Source of the DNA: Natrinema versiforme JCM 10478
GTDB lineage: Archaea > Halobacteriota > Halobacteria > Halobacteriales > Natrialbaceae
DNA: 38,355 bases
Direction: 5' to 3'
NCBI RefSeq assembly: GCF_000337195.1
Contig: NZ_AOID01000027.1
Coordinates: 83,109-121,463, forward strand
Each line of letters opens with the position of its first letter. Position 1 is the stretch's first letter. Made by a program: the position numbers and the translations under genes. Below are positions 26,523 to 32,924 of this stretch, one piece after another. The notes below the pieces were generated by a model. That model was not told the origin of the DNA and searched no databases. It worked only from the letters and a program-made list of their open reading frames with translations.

Positions 26523-27047
26523 ATGAGCGACGAACCACCGAACTGGGATTTCAAGGACCGCGATATCGCGATTCTCTGTGAACTCTCGAACGATCCGCAA
26601 CTCTCCTCGCGGGAACTCACACAGGTGCTCGAGGCGGAGTACGACATCGACGTTTCCCACGTCACCGTCAGCGAGTCGATCAGGCGGATGCGCGACGAGG
26701 GCGTCTTTCGCGAGGCGATCATCCCGAACGAGGAGTACTACATCTTTGCGCTGTTCGAGTTCAAGTTCAACGCGGAGCACTTCGCCGACAACTGGCGGGA
26801 GGCGATGGAGTACATCAAGGCGGACAAGCACACCCTGTTTTTCTTCCTCTCTGACGGGGAGTACCAGTGGAAGACGGTGATGATGTTCCGCGACCGGCAG
26901 GAAGTCTCCCAGTGGATCCACGACTGTTACACGGAGTACGGCAACGTCATCGCGAACATCCGGAACTCGGCCGTCCACAACGTCCTCAAGTTCCAGACCG
27001 ATCCCCGGATCTATGAGGACCTGCGAAAGGAGCGCAACGAGCGATAA
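26523..27047 (+). CDS. Winged-helix transcriptional regulator (Lrp/AsnC-like HTH)
   Basis: 174 residues. The N-terminal winged helix (about 10-68) includes LSSRELTQVLEAEYDIDVSH and ESIRRMRDEGVF, an AsnC/Lrp-like pattern. The C-terminal part (about 70-174) is an alpha/beta domain (YYIFALFEFKFN, TLFFFLSDGEYQW, VIANIRNSAVHNVLKF) that may sense a ligand or dimerise. It lies 30 bp downstream of the hydrolase gene, likely in the same transcript, and next to the convergent thioesterase/beta-oxidation operon. It is the only regulator in the catabolic block and so the natural candidate to bind the shared upstream element of that block (inference). Confidence 0.85.
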   Translation: MSDEPPNWDFKDRDIAILCELSNDPQLSSRELTQVLEAEYDIDVSHVTVSESIRRMRDEGVFREAIIPNEEYYIFALFEFKFNAEHFADNWREAMEYIKADKHTLFFFLSDGEYQWKTVMMFRDRQEVSQWIHDCYTEYGNVIANIRNSAVHNVLKFQTDPRIYEDLRKERNER

Positions 27048-27169: not shown

Positions 27170-27625
27170 TTAGGTGCCGTCGATGCCGTCGCGGAACAGC
27201 CGGTAGGTGGTGCGACCGACGGCGGCTTCGCCGTCGGCCCCCTCGACGGTGACGTCCGTGACGCCGGTCGAGCCGCCGGCGCGGAGCACCTCGGCTTCGG
27301 CGCGCAGGTCGCCGGTCGCGGGCCGGAGATACGAGACGTTGAGATCCGTGGTCGTCAGATGGGCCTCGCTGGGGTTCTCGAACGTGCTCCGCAGCGCGAA
27401 CGCGCTCGCGGTGTCGATCAGCGTCGCGACGATCCCGCCGTGGACCGGATCCGGCCCGTCGGTGCCGATCGGGTTCTCGAACTCCTCGTTGCGCTCGATG
27501 ACGATGACTGCTCGGCCGTCCTCGAGAGAGTCGACCTCGATGTCGAGCCACGACAGGTAGCCGTGCTGCTGGACGAACGACGCCCACTCGGGCCACCCCG
27601 ACGCGTCCGACGACCCGCCGGTCAT
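27170..27625 (-). CDS. PaaI-type hotdog thioesterase
   Basis: 151 residues. Single hotdog domain with the PaaI signature VHGGIVATLIDTASAFALRS (about 62-81; HGG plus the catalytic acid in TLID), then TTDLNVSYLRPATGDLRAEA. It hydrolyses acyl-CoA thioesters, probably to recycle CoA from dead-end intermediates. Its start lies one base after the stop of the dehydrogenase/hydratase fusion, so they form an operon with tight coupling. Confidence 0.9.
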   Translation of the reverse strand: MTGGSSDASGWPEWASFVQQHGYLSWLDIEVDSLEDGRAVIVIERNEEFENPIGTDGPDPVHGGIVATLIDTASAFALRSTFENPSEAHLTTTDLNVSYLRPATGDLRAEAEVLRAGGSTGVTDVTVEGADGEAAVGRTTYRLFRDGIDGT

Positions 27626-27626
27626 T

Positions 27627-29579
27627 TCACTCGCCCTCGAACTCGGGCTCGCGGTCCTCGGCGAAGGCCGCGGTGCCTTCCAGCACGTCGTCGGTGCTGA
27701 TCAGGAGGCCGAAGCCCTGACTCTCCATGGCGAGTGCGGCGTCGAGGCTGGCGTCTTGGCCCTCGTTCATGACTTTCTTGGCGACTTTCAGGCCAATCGG
27801 CGGGCCGCTGTGCAGGTCGTCGACGAACTCCTCGACAGTCGCGTCGAAGTCATCCCGCTCGACGGAGCGGTTGATCAGGCCCCAGTCCTCGGCGCGGTCG
27901 GCGTCGATGTGGTTGCCCCGGAAGACCAGTTCCTTCGCGCGGGTCTCCCCGAGGATGCGGGTGAGCCGCTGGGTCCCGCCGCCGCCGGGGATCAGGCCGA
28001 GGCCGATCTCCGGCGCGCCGAAGGAGGAGCGCTCGGTGGCGATCCGCAGGTCACAGGCCAGCGCGAGCTCGAGGCCGCCGCCGAGACAGAAGCCGTCGAT
28101 CTTTGCGAGGACGGGCCGCGGGAAGTCGTTGACCGTCTCGAAGGCGGGCGTGACGTCCATCATGTCGGCCGGGTCCGTATCGCCGAAGCCGGAGATATCC
28201 GCGCCGGCGCTGAACGCGCGGTCGCCCGCACCTTCGATGGTGACACACCGGACTTCGTCGGTGTCGACCGAGGTGAGCAGGTCGTCGATCTCGGCGAGCA
28301 GGTCGTTCGAGAGCGCGTTCATCCGGGACGGTCGGTCGAGTTCGATTGCGAGGAGGCCGTCCTCGAGGTCGTAGTTCAGGTCGTGGTAGGGGCCGAGTTC
28401 GGCGTCGCCGTAGTCGTAGAAGCCCGCGCCGGCGTCCTCGCCGGTCTTGCCCTCTGCGACGAGTTCCTCGAGGTACGGGTGTGGTTCGAAGCGGTCCTCG
28501 CCCGTCTCCTCGTAGAGTTCCTCGAGTTTCTCGAGGACCTTGTCGAGGCCGATCTTGTCGGCGCGTCGGCAGATTCCCTCGGGGAAGCCGAGGCCGAGTT
28601 GGACGCCGGTGTCGACCTCCTCGGGGGTGGCGACGTCCTCGCCGACGAGGAAGGCTGCGCGGTTGATCATGCGGGCCTCGACGCGGAGCCAGTCGAAGTC
28701 GCCCGCGTCCTCGGGCTCGTAGTCCGCGCCGTCACCGTCCTCGTAGTCGTAGAAGCCCTTGCCGGTCTTCTGGCCGAGCTCTTCGGCCTCGACTTTCTCT
28801 TCGGTGATCGGCGGGATCGGGCTGTCGCCCTCCTTGCGGACGTGGTAGCCGACGTCGATCCCGGTGAGGTCGGCGAGTTCGAATGGTCCCATGGGATAGC
28901 CCCGTTCGTGGGCCATCGTCGCGTCGGCCTCGCGGATCGTCGCCTCCCCGTTCGAGACCATAAAGGCGGGTTCGCCGCCGAAGGGACCGACGATCGTGTT
29001 GACGACGAAGCCGCGGACGTCCTTGCGGACGTAGATCGGCGTCTTGCCGACCGATTCGACCCACTCGTAGCCCGCTTCGGCGGCCTCGTCGCTCGTGTCC
29101 TCGCCGTAGATGACCTCGACGAGGTCCATCTTCACCGGCGGGTTGAAAAAGTGCAGGCCGAGCACGCGCTCGGGCGTGTCGACGGCTTCCGCGATGTCCG
29201 AGATCGGCAGGCTCGAGGTGTTCGTCGCGAGCAGCGTGTCCTCGGTCGTGTACTCCTCGAGATCGGTGAAGATGTCGTGTTTCAGGTCGAGGTCCTCGGG
29301 TGCGGCCTCGATGACGAGGTCGGCGTCGGCGACGGCCTCCTCGAGATCCGTCGTCGTGTCGATTCGCGAGAGCACTTCATCGGCGGACTCGTCGATCAGT
29401 TCCTTTTCCTCGAGTTTCTGTAGACTCCACTCGATGGACTCGTAGCCGTCCTCGACGAACTCCGATTTGATGTCCCGCATCGTGACGTCGTAGCCGCCCA
29501 TTGCGGTCACTTCGGTGATCCCGTGTCCCATGTTCCCCGCGCCCAGAACCGCAACGCGGTCGATGCTGTCCAGTGACAT
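27627..29579 (-). CDS. 3-hydroxyacyl-CoA dehydrogenase/enoyl-CoA hydratase fusion
   Basis: 650 residues. The N-terminal Rossmann domain (LGAGNMGHGI, GxGxxG at 13-18) and HACD domains run to about 390, with LHFFNPP carrying the catalytic His. The C-terminal crotonase domain (399-650) keeps both acid residues: E504 in GGGLELALACD and E524 in PEIGLGLIPGGGG. Order is dehydrogenase then hydratase, opposite to bacterial FadB; this archaeal arrangement is known. It hydrates enoyl-CoA and oxidises 3-hydroxyacyl-CoA with NAD+, the middle two steps of beta-oxidation or the crotonyl-CoA/acetoacetyl-CoA interconversion. First gene of an operon with the thioesterase. ATTAAG (29605-29610) lies 26-31 nt before the ATG; a 12-bp element shared with the SDR gene lies further upstream. 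Confidence 0.95.
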   Translation of the reverse strand: MSLDSIDRVAVLGAGNMGHGITEVTAMGGYDVTMRDIKSEFVEDGYESIEWSLQKLEEKELIDESADEVLSRIDTTTDLEEAVADADLVIEAAPEDLDLKHDIFTDLEEYTTEDTLLATNTSSLPISDIAEAVDTPERVLGLHFFNPPVKMDLVEVIYGEDTSDEAAEAGYEWVESVGKTPIYVRKDVRGFVVNTIVGPFGGEPAFMVSNGEATIREADATMAHERGYPMGPFELADLTGIDVGYHVRKEGDSPIPPITEEKVEAEELGQKTGKGFYDYEDGDGADYEPEDAGDFDWLRVEARMINRAAFLVGEDVATPEEVDTGVQLGLGFPEGICRRADKIGLDKVLEKLEELYEETGEDRFEPHPYLEELVAEGKTGEDAGAGFYDYGDAELGPYHDLNYDLEDGLLAIELDRPSRMNALSNDLLAEIDDLLTSVDTDEVRCVTIEGAGDRAFSAGADISGFGDTDPADMMDVTPAFETVNDFPRPVLAKIDGFCLGGGLELALACDLRIATERSSFGAPEIGLGLIPGGGGTQRLTRILGETRAKELVFRGNHIDADRAEDWGLINRSVERDDFDATVEEFVDDLHSGPPIGLKVAKKVMNEGQDASLDAALAMESQGFGLLISTDDVLEGTAAFAEDREPEFEGE

Positions 29580-29624
29580 GGTCGTGCCATCGGGGGGAAA
29601 TGTCTTAATTCCACCGACACTGCT

Positions 29625-29636
29625 TTACCATTGTTA
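29625..29636 (-). promoter_or_regulatory. Shared 12-bp element, copy 1 (dehydrogenase/hydratase gene)
   Basis: On the minus strand this reads TAACAATGGTAA, 45 nt before the ATG at 29579 and just upstream of the TATA-like ATTAAG. The identical 12-mer occurs in the same orientation relative to the SDR gene at 32099-32110. It is an imperfect dyad (TTAC/GTTA arms). A regulator site near the TATA box is a reasonable inference. Confidence 0.5.
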
Positions 29637-29825
29637 AGAGTTGCTTCGGGCCGCTCACAATCCGTATACTGACATCCGGCTGCTGAAACTGTTGTAATGA
29701 TTGCAGGCGTTTATTCGGCAGCGAGACGGTACTTGCCCGACTGCCGGACCGACCCCTGGCACCGATACCGCGTTAGTTCGGACTCGATCGCGGCGCTCAG
29801 TGCTCCAAAATCCGACTGGACCTCC

Positions 29826-30887
29826 TTAGAGCGGCTCGTCGCCCTCGATGATCCGCTTCGCCCGCGCGGCCAGCGCCGGTACTCGATTCCGCATCTTCGG
29901 GTACATCGGATCGTCGCTGTTGCCCTCGAGGTAGCGCCGGAAGAACATCTCGCCGAGGCCCGCCAGCTTGTAGACGGCCAGCGTTCGGTAGAACCGCTCG
30001 TGTTCGAACTCGTAGCCGGTTCCGTCCTCCCAGCGCTCGACCAGTTCGACCCGACTCGAGTACCCCTCCTGTTCCATGAAGCGGGTCGTCAGTTCGGGAA
30101 TCGACGGCTCGGGGTCTTTCGCGTCGCGCCAGTAGGAGAGCATCCAACCCAGATCCGCCCGCGGGTCGCCCAGCGTGGCCATCTCCCAGTCGAAGACGCC
30201 GACGAGTTCCGGCGGCGTTCCGGGGGCGAACATGACGTTGTCAAGCTTGTAGTCCCCGTGGACGAGCGTGTGGGGGTGCTCTTCTGGGACGTTGTCCCGG
30301 AGCCAGTCGCCGACCTCGTGGAGGTCCGGCACTTCCCGTTCGTCCTCGGTGACTTCGAAGGCCCACGAGAGCTGTTTCCCCCAGCGGTCGACCTGCCGTT
30401 GGGTGTACCCCTCGGGGCGGCCGAACTCGCCGAGACCGATCCCCTCGTACTCGAGATCGTGAACCTTCGCCAGCGTATCGACGAGTTCCTCGCCGATCCG
30501 ACGGCGGTGGTCCAGCTCTGCGAACCGGTCGGGTTCGCCCTCGCGGAGGACGTCGCCCTCGAGTCGCTCCATCACGTAGAAGTCGCTCCCGATGACGTCG
30601 TGGTCCTCACAGGCGAGCAACGGGTCCGGAACCGGTACGTCCGTGTCGGCGACGGCATTGGTCACGCGATACTCGCGGAGCACGTCGTGGGCCGTGTCGG
30701 CGGTCTCACCCGGCGGCGGCCGCCGAATCACGAGTTCGCGATCCCCCCACGTGACGAACAGCGTCTCGTTCGAGTGGCCCTCCTGATGGCGGGCGATATC
30801 GTAGTCGTCGGCCTCGCCGAGGTTCGCTTCGAGATACGCGACCAGCGCGTCCTCGTCGACGAGGCGCTCGTAGTAGTTCTCGCTCAT
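29826..30887 (-). CDS. Phosphotransferase of the ACAD10/11 APH-domain type
   Basis: 353 residues from ATG 30887 (MSENYYERLVDEDAL). A longer frame from 30989 adds 34 unremarkable, Arg-rich residues that I reject. Kinase fold: RRPPPG with ELVIRR (Lys/Arg of the N-lobe), ERLEG hinge, catalytic loop LVHGDYKLDNVMF (H210, D212, N217) and the Mg-binding DWE (D233 in VFDWEMATLGDPRADLGWM). HGDyrldN and DWElatlGdP are the signature of the kinase domain of mammalian ACAD10/ACAD11 and bacterial LvaA, which phosphorylate the 4-hydroxyl of 4-hydroxyacyl-CoA. It lies between the HAD gene and the beta-oxidation fusion on the same strand, which supports an acyl-CoA substrate rather than an antibiotic. Confidence 0.88.
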   Translation of the reverse strand: MSENYYERLVDEDALVAYLEANLGEADDYDIARHQEGHSNETLFVTWGDRELVIRRPPPGETADTAHDVLREYRVTNAVADTDVPVPDPLLACEDHDVIGSDFYVMERLEGDVLREGEPDRFAELDHRRRIGEELVDTLAKVHDLEYEGIGLGEFGRPEGYTQRQVDRWGKQLSWAFEVTEDEREVPDLHEVGDWLRDNVPEEHPHTLVHGDYKLDNVMFAPGTPPELVGVFDWEMATLGDPRADLGWMLSYWRDAKDPEPSIPELTTRFMEQEGYSSRVELVERWEDGTGYEFEHERFYRTLAVYKLAGLGEMFFRRYLEGNSDDPMYPKMRNRVPALAARAKRIIEGDEPL

Positions 30888-31140
30888 GGGAGATGCTTGG
30901 TACCGGTCTCTGCGCGAACGGTCGGCCCGGCAGCGGTCGTCGGAGTTCGATTCGCGTTCGGCATTGCTGTGTGCTACTATGTACCCCATTAACGAAAATA
31001 GTTACGACGAGAACACTGTTTTACAATGTTCACAAACATAGGGTTTCGGCTGGCGTGGCCCCAAACTGTCGAGCGGGATACCGACGCTCGACTCGAGGAC
31101 GGCGGAACTGGGTCCGATACGATAGCGGCCGTCTTTCGTA

Positions 31141-31857
31141 CTACCTGCCGCTCTCGACGATCTCGAGGACGTCGTCCGGGGATTCGATTCGGTAGGAGAC
31201 CGCCGGGCCGTCGTCGGCTCCGAACGCGACCCCGTGCAGTCCCGCGTCGGCGGCCCCCTTCACGTCGTGCTCGTAGCGATCGCCGATCATCAGCGACCGC
31301 TCGGGGTCGACGCCGGCCGTCTCGAGCGCCGTTTCGAACATCGCTGGATCGGGTTTGGTCCGACCGACCGCCTCCGAGGTGGTGATCGAATCAAAGCACT
31401 CGCGGATGCCGAACCGCTCGAGCATCGTCCGGCCTTCCGCGTCGTCGACGTCGCTGATGACGCCGACGTGGAGGTCCCGGTCGGCGAGGCGTTCGATCGT
31501 CTCGACGGCACCGGGAACCGGCTCGATCGACGAGCGAACGATCTCGTCGAATCGGGGTTGCCACTCCTCCCGCGGGATCTCCTCGCCGACGACCGCCGCG
31601 ACGCCGCGGTGGTAGCCGTCCCGCGCGGAGCGGAACTCGGTCCCATCGCGCTCGCGAAAGTACTCCCCGACCGCCGTCCGCCACGTCTCGACGGCTTCCT
31701 CGACTGTCGTATCGACGCTATAGCGCTCGCACAGGTCCGCGACGAACTCGGCGTGTGCGCCCTGTACCGACTCGAGCGCGAGGATCACGCCGCCGATGTC
31801 CCAGAAGACCGCCTCCCACTCGTCGGGACCACCGGCTCCCGGCTCGGTCCCGCTCAT
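31141..31857 (-). CDS. HAD-superfamily hydrolase (subclass IA-like)
   Basis: 238 residues. Nucleophile D20 in VFWDIGGVIL. The usual second Asp of DxD is G22, the DxGGV variant seen in the HAD domain of ACAD10-like proteins. Other motifs: VISDVDD (motif II), the lysine in GRTKPDP (motif III) and GDRYEHDVKGA (motif IV). The helical cap lies at about 30-110. A phosphatase on a small phosphorylated metabolite is likely. The start ATG overlaps the stop of the upstream 59-aa gene (ATGA), so translation is coupled. The kinase gene follows 254 bp downstream on the same strand. In human ACAD10 a HAD domain and this kind of kinase domain are one polypeptide. Confidence 0.88.
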   Translation of the reverse strand: MSGTEPGAGGPDEWEAVFWDIGGVILALESVQGAHAEFVADLCERYSVDTTVEEAVETWRTAVGEYFRERDGTEFRSARDGYHRGVAAVVGEEIPREEWQPRFDEIVRSSIEPVPGAVETIERLADRDLHVGVISDVDDAEGRTMLERFGIRECFDSITTSEAVGRTKPDPAMFETALETAGVDPERSLMIGDRYEHDVKGAADAGLHGVAFGADDGPAVSYRIESPDDVLEIVESGR

Positions 31858-32033
31858 CGGTCGGCCCTCCGGACCATCGGTCGATCGGCCGCGTCTCTCG
31901 CGCCACCGTCGCTCTCGAGTCCCCGCTTCGAGTCGTATTCGAGCATGTGTCCAGTCATGAAATCTCTGATTCCCTGCGGCGGCGACCGTTCGGCCGACGC
32001 CGTCGCGTGATTATCTGTGTCAGCTCTTGCCAT
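31854..32033 (-). CDS. 59-aa protein of unknown function, coupled to the HAD gene
   Basis: Reads MARADTDNHATASAERSPPQ, then GIRDFMTGHMLEYDSKRG, and ends RPMVRRADR. The central segment looks like a short folded or docking helix; the flanks are polar and probably disordered. Its TGA overlaps the HAD start (ATGA), and a TTAATAAAG element at about 32064-32072 lies 31-39 nt upstream, so I consider it expressed. I recognise no family. In the bacterial Lva pathway the kinase LvaA needs a small partner LvaB; this protein shows no clear resemblance to it, but the position invites the comparison. Confidence 0.6.
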   Translation of the reverse strand: MARADTDNHATASAERSPPQGIRDFMTGHMLEYDSKRGLESDGGARDAADRPMVRRADR

Positions 32034-32098
32034 TCGCTTAACGGTACGGTATCCATGCCCATCTTTATTAACAGTTGCTACGAATAGGGTAGTGGAAC

Positions 32099-32110
32099 TA
32101 ACAATGGTAA
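32099..32110 (+). promoter_or_regulatory. Shared 12-bp element, copy 2 (SDR gene)
   Basis: TAACAATGGTAA, identical to the element before the dehydrogenase/hydratase gene and in the same orientation to its gene, 37 nt before the SDR start. Depending on where transcription begins it overlaps or just follows the start site. Two copies in functionally related genes suggest a common regulator. Confidence 0.5.
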
Positions 32111-32147
32111 GAGTTCGAACACCGATCACAGTCGCAGGTGATCGCTC

Positions 32148-32924
32148 GTGAGTACCGACCAGTTCAGCGTCGACGGGGACGTCGCCATCGTCACCGGGTC
32201 CTCGAGCGGGATCGGGAAATCGATCGCGGAACGGTTCGCAGACGACGGCGTCGACGTGGTCGTCTGCTCGCGCGAGCAGGACAACGTCGACCCGGTCGCC
32301 GAGGAAATCAACGAGAGCGACAGGCCGGGCCGCGCGCTGGCCGTCGAGTGCGACGTGACCGACCGCGACGCCGTCGAGGCGCTCGTTGAGGCCACCGTCG
32401 AGGAGTTCGGCGGGTTGGACGTGCTTGTCAACAACGCCGGGGCCTCCTTCATGGCCGACTTCGACGACATCTCGCCGAACGGCTGGGAGACGATCATCGA
32501 CATCAACATCAACGGCACCTATCACTGCACCCACGCCGCCGCGGAGTACCTCAAGGACGGCGGCGGCGCGGTGATCAACCTCGCCAGCGTGGCCGGCCAG
32601 CGCGGCTCGCCCCTGATGAGCCCCTACGGTGCGGCCAAGGCGGCAGTAATCAACCTGACGACGACGCTCTCCTACGAGTGGGCCGAGGACGACGTTCGCG
32701 TCAACTGTATCGCGCCGGGCTTCGTCGCGACACCGGGCGTCGAGAGCCAGATGGGCGTCTCCGCGGACAACATCGACCGCGAGGAAGTCGCGCGTCGCAT
32801 CGGCACCGTCGAGGAGATCGCCGACCTCACGCAGTTCCTCGCCAGCCCCGCCTCGTCGTACATCGTCGGCGAGACGGTCACGGCCCAGGGGGTCCCCCAG
32901 ATCAGCGAAGACCGCGAGATCTGA
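32148..32924 (+). CDS. Short-chain dehydrogenase/reductase (SDR)
   Basis: 258 residues, GTG start at 32148 with AGGTGATC (32136-32143) as Shine-Dalgarno; unlike many neighbours it is leadered. Classical SDR: TGSSSGIG (16-23), NNAG (95-98), catalytic Y160 and K164 in SPYGAAKAAV, and the cofactor/substrate segment CIAPGFVATPG. SREQ after beta-2 leaves the NAD(H)/NADP(H) preference open; no Asp is obvious at the end of beta-2, which mildly favours NADP(H). Divergent from the 59-aa/HAD genes. Likely reduces or oxidises a 3- or 4-oxo/hydroxyacyl intermediate of the neighbouring pathway (inference). Confidence 0.92.
   Translation: MSTDQFSVDGDVAIVTGSSSGIGKSIAERFADDGVDVVVCSREQDNVDPVAEEINESDRPGRALAVECDVTDRDAVEALVEATVEEFGGLDVLVNNAGASFMADFDDISPNGWETIIDININGTYHCTHAAAEYLKDGGGAVINLASVAGQRGSPLMSPYGAAKAAVINLTTTLSYEWAEDDVRVNCIAPGFVATPGVESQMGVSADNIDREEVARRIGTVEEIADLTQFLASPASSYIVGETVTAQGVPQISEDREI

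Follow-up and report, generated by a model that had tools for sequence, protein, structure and literature searches.

We propose, at a probability of roughly 80%, that a gene cluster of the haloarchaeon Natrinema versiforme JCM 10478 encodes the kinase, HAD, short-chain dehydrogenase/reductase (SDR) and β-oxidation part of a haloarchaeal pathway for C4-hydroxylated acyl-CoAs, with chemistry like that of mammalian ACAD10 and ACAD11. The cluster lies in a stretch of 38,355 nucleotides (C27:83109-121463, on contig NZ_AOID01000027.1) of the 4.19 Mb genome, referred to here as the window. 4-Hydroxylated acyl-CoAs block β-oxidation. In the proposed route, the kinase would convert 4-hydroxyacyl-CoA and ATP to 4-phosphoacyl-CoA, from which an unlinked FAD-dependent acyl-CoA dehydrogenase (ACAD) of the ACAD10/ACAD11/LvaC type would eliminate the phosphate to yield a 2-enoyl-CoA. 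A fusion of 3-hydroxyacyl-CoA dehydrogenase and enoyl-CoA hydratase (HACD/ECH), which would contribute the oxidation step, together with a thiolase would then complete the breakdown. The HAD protein probably limits phospho-acyl-CoA, and the SDR may act, like LvaD of the Pseudomonas lva operon, in the reduction of a 4-keto precursor, or at another step. The genes of the cluster are as follows.

27170..27625, minus strand: hotdog-fold (PaaI-like) thioesterase (PF03061, E = 3e-13; TIGR00369 above cut-off)
27627..29579, minus strand: HACD/ECH fusion (PF02737, PF00725, PF00378)
29826..30887, minus strand: APH-fold kinase of 353 amino acids, predicted 4-hydroxyacyl-CoA kinase (PF01636, E = 1e-50)
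31141..31857, minus strand: stand-alone HAD-IA protein with DxG replacing DxD (PF00702, E = 2e-24)
31854..32033, minus strand: open reading frame of 59 amino acids, deletion scar of a 401-amino acid FMN-dependent 2-hydroxyacid dehydrogenase gene
32148..32924, plus strand: SDR oxidoreductase, divergent from the HAD gene (PF13561, E = 6e-61)

All six open reading frames lie where the initial annotation of this DNA had placed them, and the motifs it quoted were recovered in the kinase (HGDYKLDN and DWEMATLGDP) and the HAD protein (DIGGV). Domain matches of the kinase, HAD, HACD/ECH, thioesterase and SDR proteins are highly significant (Pfam, NCBIfam), and all of these are kept throughout the genus and further out. 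The closest named relatives of the window genes are those of Natrinema, the HAD protein being 87% identical to its Natrinema zhouii homologue. The thioesterase gene adjoins the cluster also in Natrinema, Natronorubrum and Salinarchaeum.

When compared with solved structures, the kinase matched 9o56 (E = 3.6e-62), 3dxp, which carries the label putative acyl-CoA dehydrogenase (E = 3e-49), and the mouse ACAD11 kinase (E = 1.6e-46), whereas the top antibiotic kinase among the PDB matches reached only E = 2e-4. For the ACAD11 kinase, D220, N225, an Arg adjoining the αC Glu and R176 in a long CoA-contacting loop have been described (PMC12440821). The corresponding places in the window kinase read HGDYKLDN, LRE and GYTQRQVDRW, so that the catalytic Asp and Asn, the Arg beside the αC Glu and the CoA-contacting Arg of GYxxRQV are all present; because R86 in the numbering of PMC12440821 does not fall on an Arg (R84 by our count), the residue match follows the description given in that paper. 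The catalytic Asp and Asn, the RE pair and RQV are invariant in 14 haloarchaeal orthologues, one of which has Gln in place of the His of HGD. On these matches the kinase is classed as a homologue of the ACAD11 kinase domain and not of antibiotic kinases, and the earlier proposal that it groups with ACAD-linked rather than sugar or antibiotic kinases was borne out; phosphorylation of 4-hydroxyacyl-CoA with ATP is its predicted activity. In a tree of haloarchaeal, bacterial and ACAD11/3dxp-type kinases, drawn with the long branch of 9fsg as outgroup, the haloarchaeal kinases formed one group, apart from the ACAD11/3dxp group, and the bacterial kinases mostly adjoin ACAD genes. The predicted structure of the kinase was not used (predicted local distance difference test, pLDDT, 48.8). 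Among the matches listed in the phylum sample, no kinase with E ≤ 1e-30 came from outside the class. A second haloarchaeal kinase clade, 36–45% identical to the window kinase (L118-L121; genomes G127, G045, G273 and G207), was also seen, in host genomes without an LvaC-type dehydrogenase.

The dehydrogenase, which the initial annotation had placed outside the window, was indeed found elsewhere in the genome, in two copies. Among the 11 ACAD genes of this Natrinema genome, L013 (on C13) and L014 (on C48), whose products are 61% identical to one another, carry the equivalents of ACAD11 R626, R631, H634, R637 and the catalytic D753. In ACAD11, H634, R637 and R626 form salt bridges with the 4-phosphate and are absent from conventional ACADs (PMC12440821). 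The full residue set was present in all haloarchaeal partner ACADs compared and in 11 bacterial homologues, and all five residues recurred in 41 of 41 further haloarchaeal partner entries, some of which share a genome. In contrast, none of 15 ordinary haloarchaeal ACAD entries had the R626/H634/R637 set, and in these Glu replaces the catalytic Asp. A tree of the ACADs split the phospho-acyl type, including ACAD11, from the ordinary ACADs with support of 100/100, and grouped 14 haloarchaeal partners with support of 99/99. Judged by residues and tree together, L013 and L014 are dehydrogenases of the ACAD10/ACAD11/LvaC type. L013 lies directly downstream of another SDR gene on the same strand (L016:8395-10573), as in bacterial SDR–ACAD–kinase operons.

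Co-occurrence was examined in 292 haloarchaeal genomes, using E < 1e-80 for the kinase and E ≤ 1e-85 for the dehydrogenase; only the best-ranking candidates of each genome were scored in the search, and a gene recorded as absent may in some cases have been missed. Kinase and LvaC-type dehydrogenase were both found in 144 genomes, neither in 148 and one alone in none (Fisher value 3e-87, which ignores kinship). Within several genera (for example g1, g2, g4, g6, g26, g34, g36 and g57) the pair is present in some genomes and absent from others, always jointly. The two genes are no more than 4 kb apart in at least 82 genomes, and 68 of the 83 listed pairs are divergent, with a median gap of 184 bp. 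The HACD/ECH fusion, taken as a control, occurs in 171 genomes, many of them without the pair, so general fatty-acid catabolism is an insufficient reason for the co-occurrence. At the threshold used, 153 genomes carry the SDR, and the pair is absent from some of these.

The gene neighbours were conserved in relatives, as the initial annotation had expected; none of the three contrary outcomes that it had named (a kinase of sugar or antibiotic type, neighbours not conserved, no ACAD partner) was observed. The HACD/ECH and kinase genes are neighbours in Haloarcula and Natronococcus, as well as elsewhere. The Haloarcula cluster runs kinase–HACD/ECH–dehydrogenase–HAD–SDR over about 6.5 kb, and that of Natronococcus runs SDR–FMN dehydrogenase–HAD–dehydrogenase–kinase–HACD/ECH. 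The window cluster resembles the Natronococcus layout, except that it lacks the dehydrogenase and has lost the FMN gene by deletion; the direction of this rearrangement we infer. Genes for ABC transporters of the branched-chain-amino-acid type lie near the module in Haladaptatus (L103:14846-17056) and Salinarchaeum (L145:8749-12636) and may import the substrate.

Several of the genes share an upstream sequence motif, and a candidate regulator gene stands beside the cluster. These features are located as follows.

26523..27047, plus strand: small winged-helix protein, candidate regulator (PF13412, weak match below cut-off)
29625..29636, plus strand: motif TTACCATTGTTA, upstream of the HACD/ECH gene
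31020..31029, minus strand: motif ACATTGTAAA, upstream of the kinase gene
32099..32110, minus strand: motif TTACCATTGTTA, in the divergent SDR/HAD promoter region, invariant in four genus mates

Only three exact copies of TTACCATTGTTA occur in the genome, two of them in the window. The third is just upstream of a gene for a 281-amino acid SDR (L196, C48:84667), which is a few kb from an acyl-CoA dehydrogenase gene and may be a further regulon member. The core, CATTGTWA, is found also before the kinase gene and 32 bp before the dehydrogenase gene L014; the region upstream of L013, the other dehydrogenase gene, showed no copy. Genome-wide the core occurs 39 times, no more commonly than a reversed control. 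Across 62 loci it precedes 71 of 219 module genes, against 2 of 472 others; related genomes and divergent pairs are counted repeatedly here, and the pattern had first been noticed on the window and then counted in relatives. The contrast between module and other genes is nevertheless large, and on this evidence the shared motif ties L014 to the window cluster, though the two are unlinked. The winged-helix gene adjoins the cluster in many relatives, and on a Haladaptatus plasmid the gene at the homologous place is annotated as an Lrp/AsnC regulator.

The HAD gene follows the kinase–dehydrogenase pair closely. It was detected in 101 genomes, 100 of which are among the 144 that hold the pair, and SDR copies 74–79% identical to that of the window adjoin HAD or dehydrogenase genes in other families; membership of both proteins in the module, as first proposed, is thus upheld, and from its distribution the HAD protein is regarded as a true third member. 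The exception, Natrialba chahannaoensis (G262; L155, L193), has a decayed locus in which the HAD gene is truncated, kinase residue 64 is fused into HACD/ECH residue 232 and the SDR matches fall in two frames. No LvaC-type dehydrogenase was found in that genome, and its module is judged to have decayed as a whole. In the HAD orthologues examined, the nucleophile D20, S135, K168 and the metal-binding D193/D198 are invariant, and Gly occupies the place of the second Asp of DxD in every one. The structure model has a pLDDT of 90.6, its nearest structures being PH0459 and PH0459-based designs. By profile the protein does not fall in TIGR02247, the HAD subfamily of ACAD10: it scored 35 bits against a cut-off of 125, and orthology with the ACAD10 HAD was not supported. 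The likeness between the two, that is, the DxG change, may be convergent.

The open reading frame of 59 amino acids had been put forward as a small LvaB-like partner, a reading that had to be abandoned. It is an open frame with no Pfam or NCBIfam match, is confined to this genome, and its ATG is unique to the window. In N. zhouii (L122), N. salsiterrestre (L126), L080 (11778-12980), L082, L088 and others, an intact PF01070 (FMN-dependent dehydrogenase) gene of about 400 codons lies between the SDR and HAD genes, and the window aligns with the upstream flank and the last 46 bp of this gene, the middle being gone. By this alignment, the 59-amino acid frame is a deletion scar, and there is consequently no evidence for LvaB at the locus. 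Remnants of their own were found in genomes G004 (L079) and G144 (L081). At least three Natrinema genomes have thus lost the FMN-dependent 2-hydroxyacid dehydrogenase gene, with differing scars, and other relatives have it intact.

The proposal of an archaeal route of the ACAD10/Lva type therefore survives in its kinase, ACAD partner, HAD and SDR, and fails in its LvaB-like protein and, by sequence, in any membership of the HAD in the subfamily of ACAD10. In mammalian ACAD10, a HAD, a kinase and an ACAD are fused; its kinase and ACAD are homologous to those described here, and its HAD likewise has an incomplete DxD. The haloarchaeal genes differ in being separate rather than encoding one chain, and their HAD stands outside TIGR02247; identities of 31–34% were measured against ACAD11. 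With ACAD11, a kinase–ACAD fusion, both proteins are homologous and keep all diagnostic residues, but the haloarchaeal kinase and ACAD are two genes, unlinked in this genome, and have a HAD partner that ACAD11 lacks. The lva operon of Pseudomonas, which serves levulinate catabolism, resembles the haloarchaeal module in gene content, with separate genes for kinase (LvaA), LvaC-type ACAD and SDR (LvaD); the haloarchaeal module differs by having a HAD and no LvaB-like protein. The window SDR is a possible counterpart of LvaD. Plasmids of Massilia, Caulobacter, Deinococcus and Streptomyces carry adjacent genes for a homologous kinase, an ACAD with the same residues and an SDR, but no HAD was seen in them. 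In Deinococcus and Streptomyces a histidine phosphatase gene stands 3' of the kinase gene instead (L107:7047-7742 and L116:6016-6663).

The reading of the kinase as an antibiotic or sugar kinase that lies by chance among β-oxidation genes draws on its Pfam APH fold and on public annotations, which call this type 'aminoglycoside phosphotransferase' (and the dehydrogenase type 'isovaleryl-CoA dehydrogenase'). We consider it very improbable, given the perfect co-occurrence with a single kind of ACAD, the weak PDB matches to antibiotic kinases described above, and a score of 36 bits with the APH(3') aminoglycoside kinase profile, whose cut-off is 205. A stronger competitor, though still an unlikely one, is that the same kinase and phosphate-elimination chemistry acts on some other blocked hydroxyacyl-CoA (branched, isoprenoid or aromatic) and not on straight-chain 4-hydroxyacyl-CoA. 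The haloarchaeal kinases and ACADs form clades of their own, at 31–38% identity to the relatives compared, and MaoC hydratases, branched-chain-type ABC transporters and the FMN 2-hydroxyacid dehydrogenase adjoin the module in some genomes. Set against this, all partner ACADs examined have the catalytic Asp and the residues with which ACAD11 grips the 4-phosphate.

Instead of regulating the kinase, the HAD protein could work as an active phosphatase on stray 4-phosphoacyl-CoA, or on a side product, and so recycle it; we rate this as plausible at somewhat under even odds. The invariant nucleophile, S135, K168 and metal-binding residues agree with such an activity, and the histidine phosphatase gene beside homologous kinases in Deinococcus and Streptomyces suggests that a phosphatase may be useful. 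However, all orthologues have Gly where the second Asp of DxD would usually serve as acid/base. In ACAD10, whose HAD also has only one Asp of DxD, the phosphatase activity of this domain was negligible and it instead held the kinase back; mutation of that Asp raised kinase output (PMC11342911). Most likely, the haloarchaeal HAD restrains the kinase or removes unwanted phospho-acyl-CoA.

Several points weigh against a pathway for C4-hydroxylated acyl-CoAs. Identity to mouse ACAD11 is modest for both the kinase (31% over 311 amino acids) and the partner ACAD (34% over 404 amino acids), and because both haloarchaeal clades are separate from those characterised, their substrate may be a different one. 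Two candidate genes exist for the dehydrogenase, both unlinked to the window cluster; no dedicated acyl-CoA ligase for the substrate was identified; and the HAD, which went undetected in 44 of the 144 genomes with the pair, is therefore accessory. Families, diagnostic residues, co-occurrence, neighbourhood and promoter motif are read from the genomes, and from these we infer the reactions, the 4-position and the roles of the HAD and SDR.

In the literature searched, the ACAD10/ACAD11 and LvaA/LvaC route was described only for mammals and bacteria, and no report of an archaeal LvaC/ACAD10 system, of the HAD partner or of the promoter motif was found, which is no proof of absence. The chemistry is thus known from ACAD10/ACAD11 and Lva, and the archaeal module, its HAD partner and the motif appear to be new within that literature. 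As a tentative extension, haloarchaea might possess a complete, co-regulated 4-hydroxyacyl-CoA pathway whose kinase is controlled by a stand-alone HAD recruited independently of that of ACAD10; partners of phosphatase fold (HAD in haloarchaea and ACAD10, histidine phosphatase in Deinococcus and Streptomyces) would then have been recruited to this kinase several times. If the proposed pathway is correct, its presence in roughly half of the haloarchaeal genomes sampled would take this route to the third domain of life. Human ACAD10, in which the role of the HAD is unsettled, has three domains that correspond to the trio of HAD, kinase and ACAD genes. A separate haloarchaeal HAD gene may help to explain that part of the human protein, and the trio, as separate genes, could be studied piece by piece.

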